From Pseudofulvimonas gallinarii (GTDB lineage Bacteria; Pseudomonadota; Gammaproteobacteria; Xanthomonadales; UBA2363): DNA of 64,000 nucleotides. The stretch is from contig NZ_SMAF01000004.1 in assembly GCF_004343305.1 (NCBI RefSeq), forward strand, positions 62,001-126,000, in the 5' to 3' direction. This document shows, piece after piece, positions 33,466 through 56,927 of the stretch. Every line of letters begins with the position of its first letter. Position 1 is the stretch's first letter. The position numbers and the translations under genes are program-made. The notes beneath the pieces were generated by a model. That model saw only the letters and a program-made list of their open reading frames with translations, was not told where the DNA came from and ran no database searches.

Positions 33466-33520
33466 CCGCGCATGATACAGCCCGCGCCCGCGCGCGTTGG
33501 GCTACACTACGCGCCGTTTT

Positions 33521-33630
33521 CGGGGAGTAGCCAGCTTCGCCGGGCCACCGGTGGAGCGTGTCCGTCAACATACTTGGCCCACAGGCCATGGCGGGCACCG
33601 GGTTCGACCGCAGCAAGACCGGAGACCGCG
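33521..33630 (+). ncRNA. yybP-ykoY (manganese-sensing) riboswitch
   Basis: The leader of the GDT1-family gene carries the conserved elements in order: GGGGAGTAGCC (33522-33532), CGTCAACATACTTGGCC (33563-33579) and GCAAGACC (33612-33619), with pairing segments between them. The first two form the L1 Mn-binding loop, and the third belongs to L3 in known yybP-ykoY aptamers, which turn on Mn exporters such as MntP and the UPF0016 protein MneA. Genomic context agrees. A TACACT at 33503-33508 may be its -10 box. The end coordinate is approximate. Confidence 0.85.
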
Positions 33631-33693
33631 ATGGCGCCAGGACCGGCCGCTTTCGTGGTCTTCGTGCGCCTGCCGGTCGGAATCATCGTCACC

Positions 33694-49508: not shown

Positions 49509-49588
49509 AGCTCCCGACGCCGGAAGCCCGGCTTGGCATGGCCGGTGCAACTACAGCGCCAGTCCACCCCAACACCAGGAGATACGTC

Positions 49589-50206
49589 ATGGCCAAGGCG
49601 GAGCCGGGCTTCAACGCTGAACAGCTCAACGAACTGCTCTACCAGGCCCTCGAAACCGAAATGGGCGGCATCGAGATCTACGAAACCGCCATCGAGTGTG
49701 CGGTCAACGACGACCTGCGCGAAGAGTGGGAGAAGTACCACGCGGAAACCGTGAACCACCGCGACATCCTGCTCGGCGTATTCGAGCAGCTCGGCCTGGA
49801 TCCGGAAGTGCAGACGCCGGGTCGCCAGGTGGTCCACCACATCGGCCAGTCGCTGGTCGAAGCCATGCGCATGGCGCTCGCCGAAGGCAAGGGCCCGGCC
49901 AGCGAGCTGGTTGCCGCCGAATGCGTGGTGCTCGCGGAAACCAAGGACCACATGAACTGGGAACTGCTCGGCAAGCTGGTCGAGCACAGCCGTGGTGACC
50001 ATACCGGCATCCTCAAGGAAGCCTACGAGCAGGTCGAACAGGAAGAGGACCACCACCTCTACCACACGGCCGGCTGGGCCCGCGAACTGTGGATCCAGAG
50101 CCTGGGCATGCCGGCCGTGCTGCCGCCTCCGGAAGAGGTCAAGAATGTCGAGACCGCCATCGGCGCTTCGCGTGCCGAGCAGGCCCGCGACAACATGATC
50201 AACTGA
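49589..50206 (+). CDS. Ferritin-like four-helix protein, function unknown
   Basis: The 205-residue helical protein has carboxylate/histidine pairs expected of a ferritin-like di-iron site: LETEMGGIEIYETAIE, EWEKYHAETVNHRD, AECVVLAETKDHMNWEL and YEQVEQEEDHHLYHTAG. It lacks a signal peptide. The arrangement suggests iron or peroxide chemistry, but no named family was recognised with certainty. A perfect AGGAGA precedes the ATG at 49589, and a strong terminator follows, so it is probably a well-expressed single gene. Confidence 0.78.
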   Translation: MAKAEPGFNAEQLNELLYQALETEMGGIEIYETAIECAVNDDLREEWEKYHAETVNHRDILLGVFEQLGLDPEVQTPGRQVVHHIGQSLVEAMRMALAEGKGPASELVAAECVVLAETKDHMNWELLGKLVEHSRGDHTGILKEAYEQVEQEEDHHLYHTAGWARELWIQSLGMPAVLPPPEEVKNVETAIGASRAEQARDNMIN

Positions 50207-50287: not shown

Positions 50288-51655
50288 TCAATCCTGCACG
50301 GGCGCTTCCCAGCGCGAAAGATCCTGCTCCAGGCCGTCGATGCCTTCCCACGGATCGGCATTCAGGCGTTTGAGCCGGGCCGGCAGCGTCGCCAGCGAAT
50401 AGGCGTCCGACTGTTTCAGTCGGCCCAGCTCGCGCCAGGCCAGCGACACGGCGACCGGTGCGCCGGGCCGCGCGCGCAACGAGTACGAGGCCACGCTGGT
50501 GGCACCGCGGCTGTTGCGCAGGTAGTCCACGAAGATCCTGTTCCGGCGACGGCTCATGGTCGCCACCGACACATAACGTTGCGGCTCGCTGGCAACCAGG
50601 GCTTCGGCGAATGCGCGGGCGAAGTTCTTCACCAGGGGCCAGCGGCTGCGCGGCCGCAATGGCAGCGCCACGTGCAGGCCCTTGCCCCCGGAGGTGCGCA
50701 GGAACGACTGGAAGCCGATCTCCGCTAGCCGGTCACGGACGGTCAGCGCCGCTTCCTTCACCTGGTCCCAGGAAATCCCCGGGCCGGGATCGAGATCGAA
50801 CACCACGCGGTCGGCGCGCTCCGGATCGTCGGAACGCGCGCCCCAGGGGTGGAATTCCAGTGCGTTCATCTGCACGAGGGCCATGACATCGGCTGCGTTC
50901 TCGACAACCAGGTAATCGGCGCGCTTGCCGGATTCCTCGCGCAGCCGGACATGGCCCACCTCGTCCATGCCGCCACTGTGGTGCTTCTGGAAGAAACAGG
51001 AGCCGCCCAATCCCTCCGGGCAGCGGATGATCGACAGGGGCCGGCCGACGATTTCCGGCAGGAACCAATCCATCACCTTCGCGTAGTAGTCGGCGACATC
51101 GGCCTTGGTGAAGCCGTCTTCGGGATACACCACCCGTTCCGGACTGGTCAGGCGGCGCACGGTTTCGTCTGGCGCCTTTGGACCTTTCCGCCGTGCGGTG
51201 CGCCTGCCGCTTCCCCCGGTGGCCGGCGCCTGTGCGCCGGAACGCCGATCACTGTCAGAGAGTGCGTCCACGGACTTGTCCTCGCGCAGGGACTTGAATG
51301 AGGCCTGCCGCAACAGGCCGCTGGAGGCATGTCCCCGGACATTGACCTCGATCACGAACAAGGGCTCGAACCAGCGCGCGCCGCGCAGTTCGGTGTCGTT
51401 CGCAGGGATGCGGACCGTCGGGTCGCGGCCACCCGCCTTGCCGATCATGCGCGTGATCCGCCGGATCATCTCGTCGGAGAACCCGCTGCCGACGCGGCCG
51501 GCATAGGTCCATGCGCCGGCATCGTCGGGGCGCGCCAGCAACAGCGAGCCGAAACCGGTCCGGCTGCCCTGCGGTGGCGTGAACCCGACCACGGCATATT
51601 CATCGCCTTCGACCAGCTTGCTTTTCCGCCAGTCGTCACCGCGTCCACTGCGATG
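50288..51655 (-). pseudogene. ligD: 5'-truncated ATP-dependent DNA ligase LigD (OB-fold and polymerase domains only)
   Basis: The frame begins at SGRGDDWRKSKLVEGDEYAV and GFTPPQGSRTGFGSLLLAR, the C-terminal OB-fold of the LigD ligase domain. After a linker it continues into the polymerase/primase domain (TSPERVVYPEDGFTKADVAD, GGSCFFQKHH, VVFDLDPGPGISW, TSGGKGLHVALPL, RIFVDYLRN). The phosphoesterase and ligase adenylation domains that should precede it are missing. Upstream of about 51655 the frame reads unrelated low-complexity sequence that is antisense to a ctaG remnant. The polymerase part looks intact and might still be made from an internal start. No ku gene is present. LigD normally repairs double-strand breaks with Ku. 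Confidence 0.82.
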
Positions 51656-51834
51656 GGGTCGATCGGCCCGTTTCGGTCCTGGACCTGGATCCGCTGATCG
51701 ACCAGCAGCTGGCCGGACTGGTGATGTGGGTCCCCACCTGCCTGCCATACCTCGTCGCGGCCGCCGCCATTGTGGTGACGAGACTGGGACCGTACTCCAA
51801 CCGGCGGATGCGGGACGGGCGCCCTGCCGATTGA
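51652..51834 (+). pseudogene. 3' remnant of a CtaG-type cytochrome c oxidase assembly gene
   Basis: The plus-strand frame reads VLDLDPLIDQQLAGLVMWVP followed by TCLPYLVAAAAIVVTRLGP and stops at TGA 51832-51834. The D-Q-Q-L-A-G-L-x-M-W-V-P segment and following helix are the C-terminal end of caa3-type CtaG membrane proteins. No start or the other helices exist upstream, where the sequence is instead the antisense of truncated ligD. The remnant is about 60 codons. Confidence 0.72.
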
Positions 51835-51972
51835 CCGGGCTGCAGCAGCGCGCCGGCGATGAAGAGGTTGGCGGCGACACGAGCGCAACGAAGGCCAAAC
51901 GGACCGCGCTTCCGCGCAGTCCGTGGCAAGGCCGTTGCTGCCCCACTACACCGCCAACGACAGGTCAATGCC
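51835..51972. other. Short non-coding stretch between the ctaG remnant and a small ORF
   Basis: I see no gene, terminator or strong promoter here. The region up to 52373 is covered only by the doubtful ORF at 51973. Confidence 0.5.
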
Positions 51973-52377
51973 ATGAGCACGACTCCGCGCCGACACCATA
52001 GCCATGGAAACACGCCCGACGACCGTTCCGCACGCCTGCCCGATTCCATCCGCAAGGCAACGGTCGACGGCGCCGAAAACGCGAATTCGGAAGACACCGC
52101 AGCCACCTCCAACGACGCATCCGCGGGCCGCAACGACGGCCCGGGCGGCTACGCACCCACGGTGTCGCCCGATGACGACACCCCACGTCGTCCCGGCGAC
52201 AGCGGCAGCGGGATGCGGGATGCGGGATGCGGGAAAAGGGCGCCAGTGACGACCGGCGCCCGCCACCGCTCGACGACAGGCAACGCTAGAAGACAGGCAC
52301 CGACCGGCACCCGCCGGTCCTTTCCCCCATTTCGCCGGCAACACCCGGCAAACCCTATCCAGGAGCTGATCGCATGA
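51973..52377 (+). CDS. Hypothetical disordered protein (doubtful)
   Basis: The frame gives 134 residues, starting MSTTPRRHHSHGNTPDDRSA, very polar and rich in Thr, Asp, Gly, Arg and Pro, without hydrophobic segments. AGG lies nine bases before the ATG and the stop overlaps the CBS gene start (ATGA), which favours reality. A 7-bp tandem repeat at 52208-52234 within it alters the frame with each copy, and the sequence after the repeat looks less protein-like, so the true end may be elsewhere. No family recognised. Confidence 0.38.
   Translation: MSTTPRRHHSHGNTPDDRSARLPDSIRKATVDGAENANSEDTAATSNDASAGRNDGPGGYAPTVSPDDDTPRRPGDSGSGMRDAGCGKRAPVTTGARHRSTTGNARRQAPTGTRRSFPPFRRQHPANPIQELIA
52208..52234. 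repeat. 7-bp tandem repeat (GCGGGAT, three full copies plus six bases)
   Basis: Copies start at 52208, 52215 and 52222, with GCGGGA at 52229. Gain or loss of a copy would shift the frame of the small ORF that spans it. Confidence 0.9.
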
Positions 52378-53834: not shown

Positions 53835-54353
53835 TCAACCGTGGGCGGCGCGCACGTCCAGCGTGCGGTTCTCGCCAAGGTCCTGGGGTCCGTCGCCGGC
53901 GATTGCACGCACCAGCTTCAGTGCCTGGCCCACCAGTCCGCCGGTGCTGCGCCAGTATTCGGCGCTGTCGACCTCGACCCTGAGCAGCGCGAGGTCCGGA
54001 TCATCCTTGCCACCGGGGAAGAAGATCTTCGACTGCGTGCTCCACAGGTCATCGATCTTCGCGCGGTCACGGATGACTTCGGCGCGCCCGGTGACGGAGA
54101 CGTACAGGTGCTTGCCCGGACGGGCATAGCTCAGGTTGATCCGCGGATCCCCGGCGATGTCGTCGACCTTGCCGCTGCTGGCGTGGGTGAAGAACCAGAG
54201 GGCGCCGTCCGGATCCGCCTGCAGCGTCGCCAGCGGCCGGCTGACAAGACTTCCGTCCGGCGCGCGCGAAACAAGCATGGCCACCTCGATGTCCTCGATC
54301 AGTTCGGCGAGGGTCTGCACTTCGGCGTTCGCGTTGCGGGTATCGTTCTGCAT
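53835..54353 (-). CDS. Pyridoxamine 5'-phosphate oxidase-like FMN-binding protein (general stress protein 26 type)
   Basis: The 172-residue split-barrel protein has IEVAMLVSRAPDGSLVSRPL, LWFFTHASSGKVDDIAGDPR, YVSVTGRAEVIRDRAKIDDL and FFPGGKDDPDLALLRVEVDS, matching the general stress protein 26 branch of the PPOX superfamily, which binds flavin. AAGGA lies six bases before the ATG at 54353. It is 14 bases downstream of a small acidic-protein gene and probably co-transcribed with it. Confidence 0.87.
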   Translation of the reverse strand: MQNDTRNANAEVQTLAELIEDIEVAMLVSRAPDGSLVSRPLATLQADPDGALWFFTHASSGKVDDIAGDPRINLSYARPGKHLYVSVTGRAEVIRDRAKIDDLWSTQSKIFFPGGKDDPDLALLRVEVDSAEYWRSTGGLVGQALKLVRAIAGDGPQDLGENRTLDVRAAHG

Positions 54354-54367
54354 GGCCGTTCCTTCCC

Positions 54368-54661
54368 TCATTCCGGATCAATGAATTCGAGCGCGGCGCC
54401 GGCGGAACGCGCCGAGGCATCGGCCTGGCGACGGACCAGGCTGGCCAGTTCGTCGTTGTCGTCGAACTCGACCAGCAGCTCGCCAACGCCGCCGTAATCG
54501 TTCTCCGCCAGGCCGGCCGAGCTTGAATCGGCGTCGTCCATGCGCGGCATCAGGTCGGCGACTTCGTCGACGCGCTGCACGCCCTCGATATCCATCAGGC
54601 TTTCGGAAACGCTTTCCAGCGCCTCTTCCGGTCCGGTAACCCGCAGTCGCAGCTGGGCCAT
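54368..54661 (-). CDS. Small acidic protein of unknown function
   Basis: The 97-residue product starts MAQLRLRVTGPEEALESVSE and has a ferredoxin-like alternation (SLMDIEGVQRVDEVADLMPR, VGELLVEFDDNDELASLV) with an acidic linker. It might be a small-molecule or protein-interaction domain; no family recognised. CAGGA is close to the ATG at 54661. It precedes the PPOX gene. Confidence 0.7.
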   Translation of the reverse strand: MAQLRLRVTGPEEALESVSESLMDIEGVQRVDEVADLMPRMDDADSSSAGLAENDYGGVGELLVEFDDNDELASLVRRQADASARSAGAALEFIDPE

Positions 54662-54910: not shown

Positions 54911-55993
54911 ATGCCCATGCCCCGCCCACGTACCGCAGTGCTGGCCGTTCTCGTCATCGTCCTCGTCCTGCTGGCCTTGCGACTGGCCCTGCCGACCCTG
55001 ATCGAGCGCTCGGTCAACGCCCGGCTCGCGGCGATGGCGAATTACAGCGGCCACGTCGCCGACGTGGACGTGGCCCTGTGGCGCGGCGCCTACGTACTTC
55101 GCGACCTGCGCATCGACAAGCGCGACAGCAACCTGCCCGTCCCCATGCTGGTGGCGCCACGGGTCGATATCGCGCTGGCCTGGCGCCACCTGTTCCGGGG
55201 CTCGATCGTCGCGCTTGTCGAATTCGAACAGCCGGTGCTGCATTTCGTTGACGGTCGCGGCCGTGACGACAGCCTGACCGGCGCCGGCGAGGACTGGCGC
55301 CAGCGCCTGGAGGAGCTGGTACCGATCCGCATTGACGAGGTGCTGGTGCGCGACGGCGAAGTGGTCTTCCACAACTTCGTGTCGGATCCGCCTGTCGACC
55401 TGCGTGCCGCCGCCGTCAACGCCCGCCTCGAAAACCTCACCAACGTACGCGACGAGGCCGGCGGGCGTGTCGCCGACCTGCAGGCCACCGCCCTGCTGTT
55501 CGACAGTGCCGACCTGGAAGCGCAGGCACGCTTCGATCCGATCGGCCGGATGGAAACCTTTTCACTGGCGTTGCGGGTGCTGTCCATCGACTTGACGCGC
55601 ATCAACGACCTCGCCCGCGCCTACGCCAACATCGACTTCGAGTCCGGTAATGGCGAGTTCGTGCTTGAGCTGGAAGCCGAGGACGGCAGCCTTTCCGGTT
55701 ACGCGAAACCGCTGTTCCAGAACCTGAAGATCTTCAGCTGGCGCAGTGACGTCGTCGAGTCTGAAAAAAATCCCTTCCGCATCGCCTGGGAAGCCGTGGT
55801 CCAGGGCGTGACCACCCTGTTCCGCAACCAGCCCGCCGACCAGTTCGGCACCCGCATCGAGATCAGCGGGCGCATCGACAATCCGGAACTGGGCGTGTTC
55901 GGCGCCGTGATCGGCGTGCTCCGCAACGCGTTCGTGCGCGCGCTGGAACCGTACTTCGAGGGCACGCATCTGCCGCTGCGCGACGACGGTTGA
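54911..55993 (+). CDS. DUF748 (AsmA-like) membrane-anchored periplasmic protein
   Basis: The 360-residue protein has an N-terminal transmembrane anchor (TAVLAVLVIVLVLLALRLAL) and a DUF748-like body: VDVALWRGAYVLRDLRIDKR, FEQPVLHFVDGRG, PIRIDEVLVRDGEVVFHNF and GVFGAVIGVLRNAFVRAL. It is related to AsmA/TamB-type lipid-transport or envelope-stress proteins. An ATG at 54917 is also possible. The preceding 249 bases hold no convincing gene. Confidence 0.83.
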   Translation: MPMPRPRTAVLAVLVIVLVLLALRLALPTLIERSVNARLAAMANYSGHVADVDVALWRGAYVLRDLRIDKRDSNLPVPMLVAPRVDIALAWRHLFRGSIVALVEFEQPVLHFVDGRGRDDSLTGAGEDWRQRLEELVPIRIDEVLVRDGEVVFHNFVSDPPVDLRAAAVNARLENLTNVRDEAGGRVADLQATALLFDSADLEAQARFDPIGRMETFSLALRVLSIDLTRINDLARAYANIDFESGNGEFVLELEAEDGSLSGYAKPLFQNLKIFSWRSDVVESEKNPFRIAWEAVVQGVTTLFRNQPADQFGTRIEISGRIDNPELGVFGAVIGVLRNAFVRALEPYFEGTHLPLRDDG

Positions 55994-56063
55994 GCCGCTC
56001 CGCGGTATCTGGCACGGATCCTGCAATTCCCTTTCCGACTTCAACCGGACAAGGAGCCGAAGG

Positions 56064-56927
56064 ATGAGCAGCAAGGAAAAACGACCCAACCCGCCGCAGT
56101 CGCAGGATCAACAGCCCGGCCACGAATCGGAAATGCGTCCGCGTCCGGTGTTCATCCGCGACGACTACCGCGGCAGCGGCAAGCTGGAGGGCCGGGTCGC
56201 GCTGATCAGCGGCGGCGACAGCGGCATCGGTCGTGCCGTGGCCGTGCACTTCGCCCGCGAAGGCGCGGATGTCGCCATCATCCACCTTGAGGAAAACGAG
56301 GACGCGCGCGAAACCCGACGGCTGGTGGAAGCCGAGGGCCGACGCTGCCATGTCATCCGTACCGACCTGTCCAAAGCCGGAAACGGCCGCAAGGCGGTCA
56401 GCGACACCGTGTCCGCCCTTGGCGCCCTGGACATCCTGGTCAACAACGCCGGCGAACAGCACGAATCCGACTCGCCTGCCGAACTGGACCGCGCGCAGAT
56501 CGAGCAGACCTTCGCCACCAACCTGTTCGCCTGCTTCGAGCTGGTCGATGCAGCCCTCCCGCACCTGAAGAAGGGCAGCTCGATCATCAGCACCGGTTCG
56601 ATCACCGGCGCCCGCGGCCACGAAACCCTGCTGGACTACGCGGCCACCAAGGGCGCCATCCACGCCATGACCTTCTCGTTCGCGCAGAGCCTCGCCAAGC
56701 GCGGCATCCGCGTCAACGCGGTGGCGCCTGGCCCGATCTGGACGCCGCTGATCCCGGCCAGCTTCGATGCCGACAAGGTCGCCAAGTTCGGCGCCGATAC
56801 GCCGATGGGCCGGCCCGGCCAGCCGGCGGAAGTGGCTCCGGCCTATGTCCTGCTCGCCAGCGAGGACGGCGCCTACATCACCGGGCAGGTCATCCACATC
56901 AACGGCGGCGGCTACATGGGCGACTGA
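56064..56927 (+). CDS. Short-chain dehydrogenase/reductase (YghA-type)
   Basis: The 287-residue classical SDR has a polar N-terminal extension (MSSKEKRPNPPQSQDQQPGH) typical of the YghA/YdaD/glucose-dehydrogenase-like stress branch. It has the NAD(P) motif SGGDSGIG, NNAG, the catalytic serine in STGSITG, YAATKG (Tyr-x-x-x-Lys) and the closing ITGQVIHINGGGYMGD. The substrate is unknown. AAGG lies directly before the ATG. ChaB follows 34 bases later. Confidence 0.92.
   Translation: MSSKEKRPNPPQSQDQQPGHESEMRPRPVFIRDDYRGSGKLEGRVALISGGDSGIGRAVAVHFAREGADVAIIHLEENEDARETRRLVEAEGRRCHVIRTDLSKAGNGRKAVSDTVSALGALDILVNNAGEQHESDSPAELDRAQIEQTFATNLFACFELVDAALPHLKKGSSIISTGSITGARGHETLLDYAATKGAIHAMTFSFAQSLAKRGIRVNAVAPGPIWTPLIPASFDADKVAKFGADTPMGRPGQPAEVAPAYVLLASEDGAYITGQVIHINGGGYMGD

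Follow-up and report, generated by a model that had tools for sequence, protein, structure and literature searches.

Tails of ligD and ctaG joined back to back at a probable chromosomal breakpoint in Pseudofulvimonas gallinarii

Two gene tails and their junction

Within the window, i.e., the whole stretch of 64,000 nucleotides that was analysed, the 3' part of a DNA ligase D gene (ligD) on the minus strand abuts the last codons of ctaG on the plus strand. The features of the locus and its flanks are collected in Table 1.

Table 1. Features at the ligD-ctaG junction and in its flanks (window coordinates).
Feature	Position	Strand	Basis
Ferritin-like gene (weakly DUF892-like), left flank	49538..50206	+	homologue adjoins ku-ligD in congener G001
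ligD remnant: DNA ligase D 3' part, 461 codons + stop	50288..51673	-	profile matches, alignment
LigD primase-polymerase (Pol) domain, complete	50309..51154	-	Pfam; DLD, SGGKGLH and FVDYLRN motifs
Ligase OB-fold (DNA_ligase_A_C) of the ligD remnant	51263..51673	-	Pfam, alignment
Junction (LigD end 51673, CtaG start 51676)	51671..51678	.	homology limits of both
ctaG remnant: last 52 codons + stop, caa3-oxidase assembly factor (membrane protein)	51676..51834	+	profiles, congener alignment
Pyridoxamine-oxidase-like gene, right flank	53835..54371	-	~62% homologue near ctaG in congeners G001 and G002
Short-chain dehydrogenase, right flank	55911..56924	+	72% identical homologue, Pfam

The frame of the ligD remnant has neither internal stops nor frameshifts and is part of a longer open frame, P0001 (minus strand, 50288-51946). 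With regard to Pfam, P0001 matches only DNA_ligase_A_C (E=2e-20, residues 129-224) and LigD_Prim-Pol (E=6e-89, residues 280-533); the NCBIfam DNA ligase D model matches residues 92-537. Residues 1-91 show no LigD homology and lie on the strand opposite to the ctaG tail and to the bases that follow it. That is, the phosphoesterase (PE) and adenylation (LIG) domains are absent from P0001, and the match to the ligase part is limited to its C-terminal OB fold.

Conservation is largely kept in the two remaining domains, i.e., 28 of 29 near-invariant positions of the OB fold (a count that excludes two further differences upstream of the junction) and 54/58 of the Pol domain, where the four changes are mostly conservative substitutions. 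The resulting Pol conservation of 0.93 is lower than in most relatives (5th percentile 0.966, minimum 0.915), and the three motifs align with those of the solved Pseudomonas Pol domain 2fao. We also compared the divergence of OB and Pol from the relatives, which is equal (ratio 1.01 vs 1.06 +/- 0.18), such that a faster decay of the OB fold was rejected. Without an adenylation domain, an OB fold is useless for ligation; given this, the missing extra decay would point to a recent truncation. With conserved residues kept in both domains, either the truncation is recent or else the product of the ligD tail may still be in use.

In the tree, P0001 has the longest end branch (0.87) and falls inside a clade of Xanthomonadaceae LigD proteins, its exact place being unsure. 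The Ku-linked LigD of the congener G001 sits in a different clade and the two are thus not orthologues. A plasmid search with ligD gave, among the matches listed, only distant ones that cover at most 20% of the query.

The ctaG remnant is 57% identical to congener CtaG over 37 aa (E=2e-7). It covers only positions 202-233 of the 237 positions of the Pfam model Caa3_CtaG, slightly under the curated cut-off, i.e., it is not a full-length transmembrane assembly factor. A whole-genome search gave E=2.6e-5, and the iterated profile built in this analysis 1.8e-10.

Against 52 aligned relatives, the LigD alignment breaks within the conserved (S)KRAD motif, namely at its K. The conserved LigD motif is EGIISKRADxP; P0001 reads PGPGP followed by KRADRPHRSGRGDDWRK, with the lysine at the breakpoint codon 51671-51673, the last one with LigD homology. 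On the plus strand, CtaG homology reads VLDLDPLIDQQLAGLVMWVPTCLPYL... from base 51676 (vs MLGLDALADQQLAGLVMWIPSALPYL... in congener CtaG), and no CtaG match was found 5' of this base. Only 2-3 bases separate the two homologies, with the join at position ~51674. The initial annotation, which had both homologies start at virtually the same base and both genes lose their 5' parts at one breakpoint, is confirmed in this respect; the junction it described is indeed abrupt but lies ~20 bases away from the position near 51655 that it gave. Chance would not explain such a spacing. Judging from the sequence, the tail ends of ligD and ctaG were joined back to back by a chromosomal break.

Flanking genes and genome-wide losses

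In both congeners (G001 and G002), homologues of the two right-flank genes follow ctaG within ~4 kb, that of the short-chain dehydrogenase at ~1.8 kb. This shows that the sequence to the right of the junction is the native ctaG locus with some local reordering. The reductase gene that follows ctaG in the congeners is missing and a CBS-domain gene takes its place, so further changes took place here. A reading of the gene at 55911 as YihY was rejected given its Pfam assignment as a short-chain dehydrogenase, and weaker homologues of it that lie next to ligD in further genomes were kept out of the evidence. The interval from the ctaG tail to the CBS gene holds a short, perfect tandem repeat of GCGGGAT (3.9 copies, 52208-52234). 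Elsewhere in the window, a manganese (yybP-ykoY) riboswitch match at 33504-33684 is barely over threshold.

On the left side, the ferritin-like gene and the ligD remnant are convergent, unlike in G001, where ferritin-like gene, ku and ligD follow in a row on one contig and in the same direction. The ferritin-like gene is also present in G002, with ku and ligD both absent.

In both congeners, ctaG is intact within a caa3-type oxidase cluster that encodes CtaC, a CtaD/E fusion, a DUF2231 protein, a CopD-like protein, CtaG and a ferredoxin-reductase-like protein (the DUF2231 name comes from Pfam, the CopD-like gene was matched to UPF0093, and the other names are from sequence inspection). The G002 versions match the cluster proteins of G001 at 88-97%. 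In the P. gallinarii genome, this cluster finds only the ctaG tail, CtaC/CtaD paralogues at ~41-45% (subunits of the ordinary oxidase) and weak hits to the reductase and the CopD-like protein. The whole cluster, the ctaG tail excepted, is thus gone from the genome, and with the oxidase genes that precede ctaG the loss goes beyond two 5' ends. Within the window, nothing credible was found for remnants of the missing oxidase, reductase or LigD halves, and no window gene has a homologue in the stretch that precedes the congeners' oxidase cluster, as far as this stretch was covered.

The assembly has 3.45 Mb in 57 contigs and is rated 100% complete. No Ku was found in it. Among 200 genomes of the order, the same search finds Ku in 51, G001 included; LigD-type matches were found in 65 of the 200 and CtaG matches in 49. 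Neither the remnant itself nor a full LigD as query revealed another LigD segment in the assembly, and there is no second CtaG. Both genes that the initial annotation suggested to search for, ku and a second ligD, are hence absent. Its reading of the site as a recent loss of Ku/LigD end joining is only partly supported: the absences agree with it, but the loss of a Ku/LigD pair at this very site does not follow from them, as the remnant is no orthologue of the Ku-linked ligD of G001. From gene absence, we infer a lineage incapable of Ku/LigD end joining and without this kind of caa3-type oxidase cluster.

For a draft genome of 57 contigs with a join within a few bases, an assembly chimera of two wrongly joined loci has to be considered. 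This is very unlikely since no other contig carries the ligD 5' half, the ctaG 5' half, the oxidase cluster or ku. The junction is also interior to a 210-kb contig that contains the whole window.

Origin of the breakpoint

We consider it probable that a chromosomal deletion or rearrangement had its breakpoint at this site, that it fused the ligD 3' part to the terminal 52 codons of ctaG in the latter's native place, and that the missing parts were lost; the ligD tail left behind is most likely a young pseudogene. The simplest single event, for which we see about an even chance, would be one deletion of at least ~6 kb that starts inside ligD, runs through the oxidase cluster and ends in ctaG. 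This minimum includes the ligD 5' part and assumes an ancestor with the congeners' layout; the deletion would have to span the cluster since the latter directly precedes ctaG in the congeners. It would also require that ligD was directed away from the oxidase cluster in the ancestor, an arrangement unobserved in the relatives searched.

With regard to the ancestral arrangement, a divergent adjacent ligD-ctaG pair occurs in 0 of the 200 genomes of the order, and there is none among the matches listed for 199 Xanthomonadaceae that were searched with both proteins (the two draws partly overlap and comprise about 370 genomes together). Among the matches listed, the closest case is genome G154, where ctaG and ligD are on the same strand ~6 kb apart with two unrelated genes in between, i.e., IMP dehydrogenase and GMP synthase (named from sequence, not by family search). 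The initial annotation had proposed one deletion between divergent neighbours, to be checked by an intact divergent pair in relatives. Its shared breakpoint stands; the neighbour arrangement is unproven, given that the matches listed for the ~370 genomes contain no such pair and that ctaG is located within the caa3 cluster in the congeners. Because the whole cluster is missing, the event would have been larger or more complex than a deletion between two neighbours. Furthermore, the reductase gene is also missing and the right flank is locally reordered, which is evidence against one event; that is, a single event is insufficient for everything.

Alternatively, an inversion or translocation might have moved the ferritin-like gene and the ligD tail beside the ctaG tail, with the displaced halves lost later. 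This would be in accordance with the local reordering of the right flank, with the location of ligD and ctaG on different contigs in G001, and with the nesting of the LigD remnant in another family's clade, a hint of horizontal origin. It would also fit the convergence of ferritin-like gene and ligD here compared to the co-directional ferritin-like gene, ku and ligD of G001, although the orientation of the latter ligD is weak evidence, the gene not being an orthologue. On the other hand, at least two events are needed, and both displaced halves are absent from the genome, which a deletion directly explains. We regard an inversion or translocation followed by loss as the main rival to a deletion, albeit the less likely of the two.

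The same genome searches gave two further observations on ligD. In five Xanthomonadaceae genomes (G352, G367, G337, G321 and G283; loci L122, L123, L124, L126 and L135), two ligD-type genes lie ~4-6 kb apart with the second one beside ku; the search matches of this second gene show an in-frame stop, which may be mere read-through beyond the gene end. In genome G135, the ku-linked ligD frame (L107:9324-11120) has only 599 codons and is possibly a truncated or frameshifted ligD.

Fate of the ligD tail and relation to known systems

A truncated but expressed ligD could act as a functional stand-alone OB-polymerase that fills gaps without Ku, by analogy to stand-alone primase-polymerases. The open frame and the kept catalytic motifs favour this reading. 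So do stand-alone Pol genes, several of which (about 290-370 codons) occur in the order, and the mycobacterial stand-alone Prim-PolC, which acts with LigC in excision repair (PMC5663958). On the other hand, the in-frame starts of the remnant show no clear ribosome-binding site and none is convincing, no sigma-70-like promoter was found for it, starts further upstream would run antisense through the ctaG tail, and the end branch of P0001 is the longest in the tree. Nor do we know of any use for an OB fold that is retained without its adenylation domain. We therefore consider a functional OB-polymerase unlikely. The polymerase domain, which the initial annotation suggested to be possibly still expressed, is indeed intact, but start and promoter-like sites lend no support to its expression. 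That the truncated gene is both expressed and selected as a Ku-independent OB-polymerase, i.e., that a new stand-alone polymerase was born by deletion from LigD, is if anything more improbable; most likely, the ligD tail is a young pseudogene.

Compared to bacterial DNA ligase D (PE-LIG-POL) of the Xanthomonadaceae clade, the OB and Pol domains of the remnant are ~62% identical to their best relatives with the catalytic motifs kept, but the PE and adenylation domains are missing, as is Ku from the genome. Because of these absences, the remnant is unable to act as an end-joining ligase. With the stand-alone LigD-type primase-polymerases (Prim-PolC/PolD), among which repair functions are known (PMC5663958), it shares a complete Pol domain without a ligase catalytic core; it differs by its left-over OB fold and its truncation origin, and neither a start site nor a partner ligase was identified. 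The ctaG tail resembles the end of the caa3-type oxidase assembly factor, while more than 80% of the gene and the oxidase cluster are missing here.

It is established that bacterial non-homologous end joining (NHEJ) was gained and lost several times independently, and a genome that has POL but lacks both LIG and Ku is scored as NHEJ-minus (PMC7719229). P. gallinarii, with neither Ku nor a LigD ligase, resembles the lineages with secondary loss described there; in contrast to other NHEJ-minus lineages, the physical scar of ligD loss is still visible. The site is a case of ordinary gene loss with an unusually clear scar. It is one more example and introduces no new principle; as the scar documents the loss of a LigD and of an accessory oxidase from one lineage, possibly together, the site can serve as a small test case for the patchy occurrence of NHEJ among bacteria.
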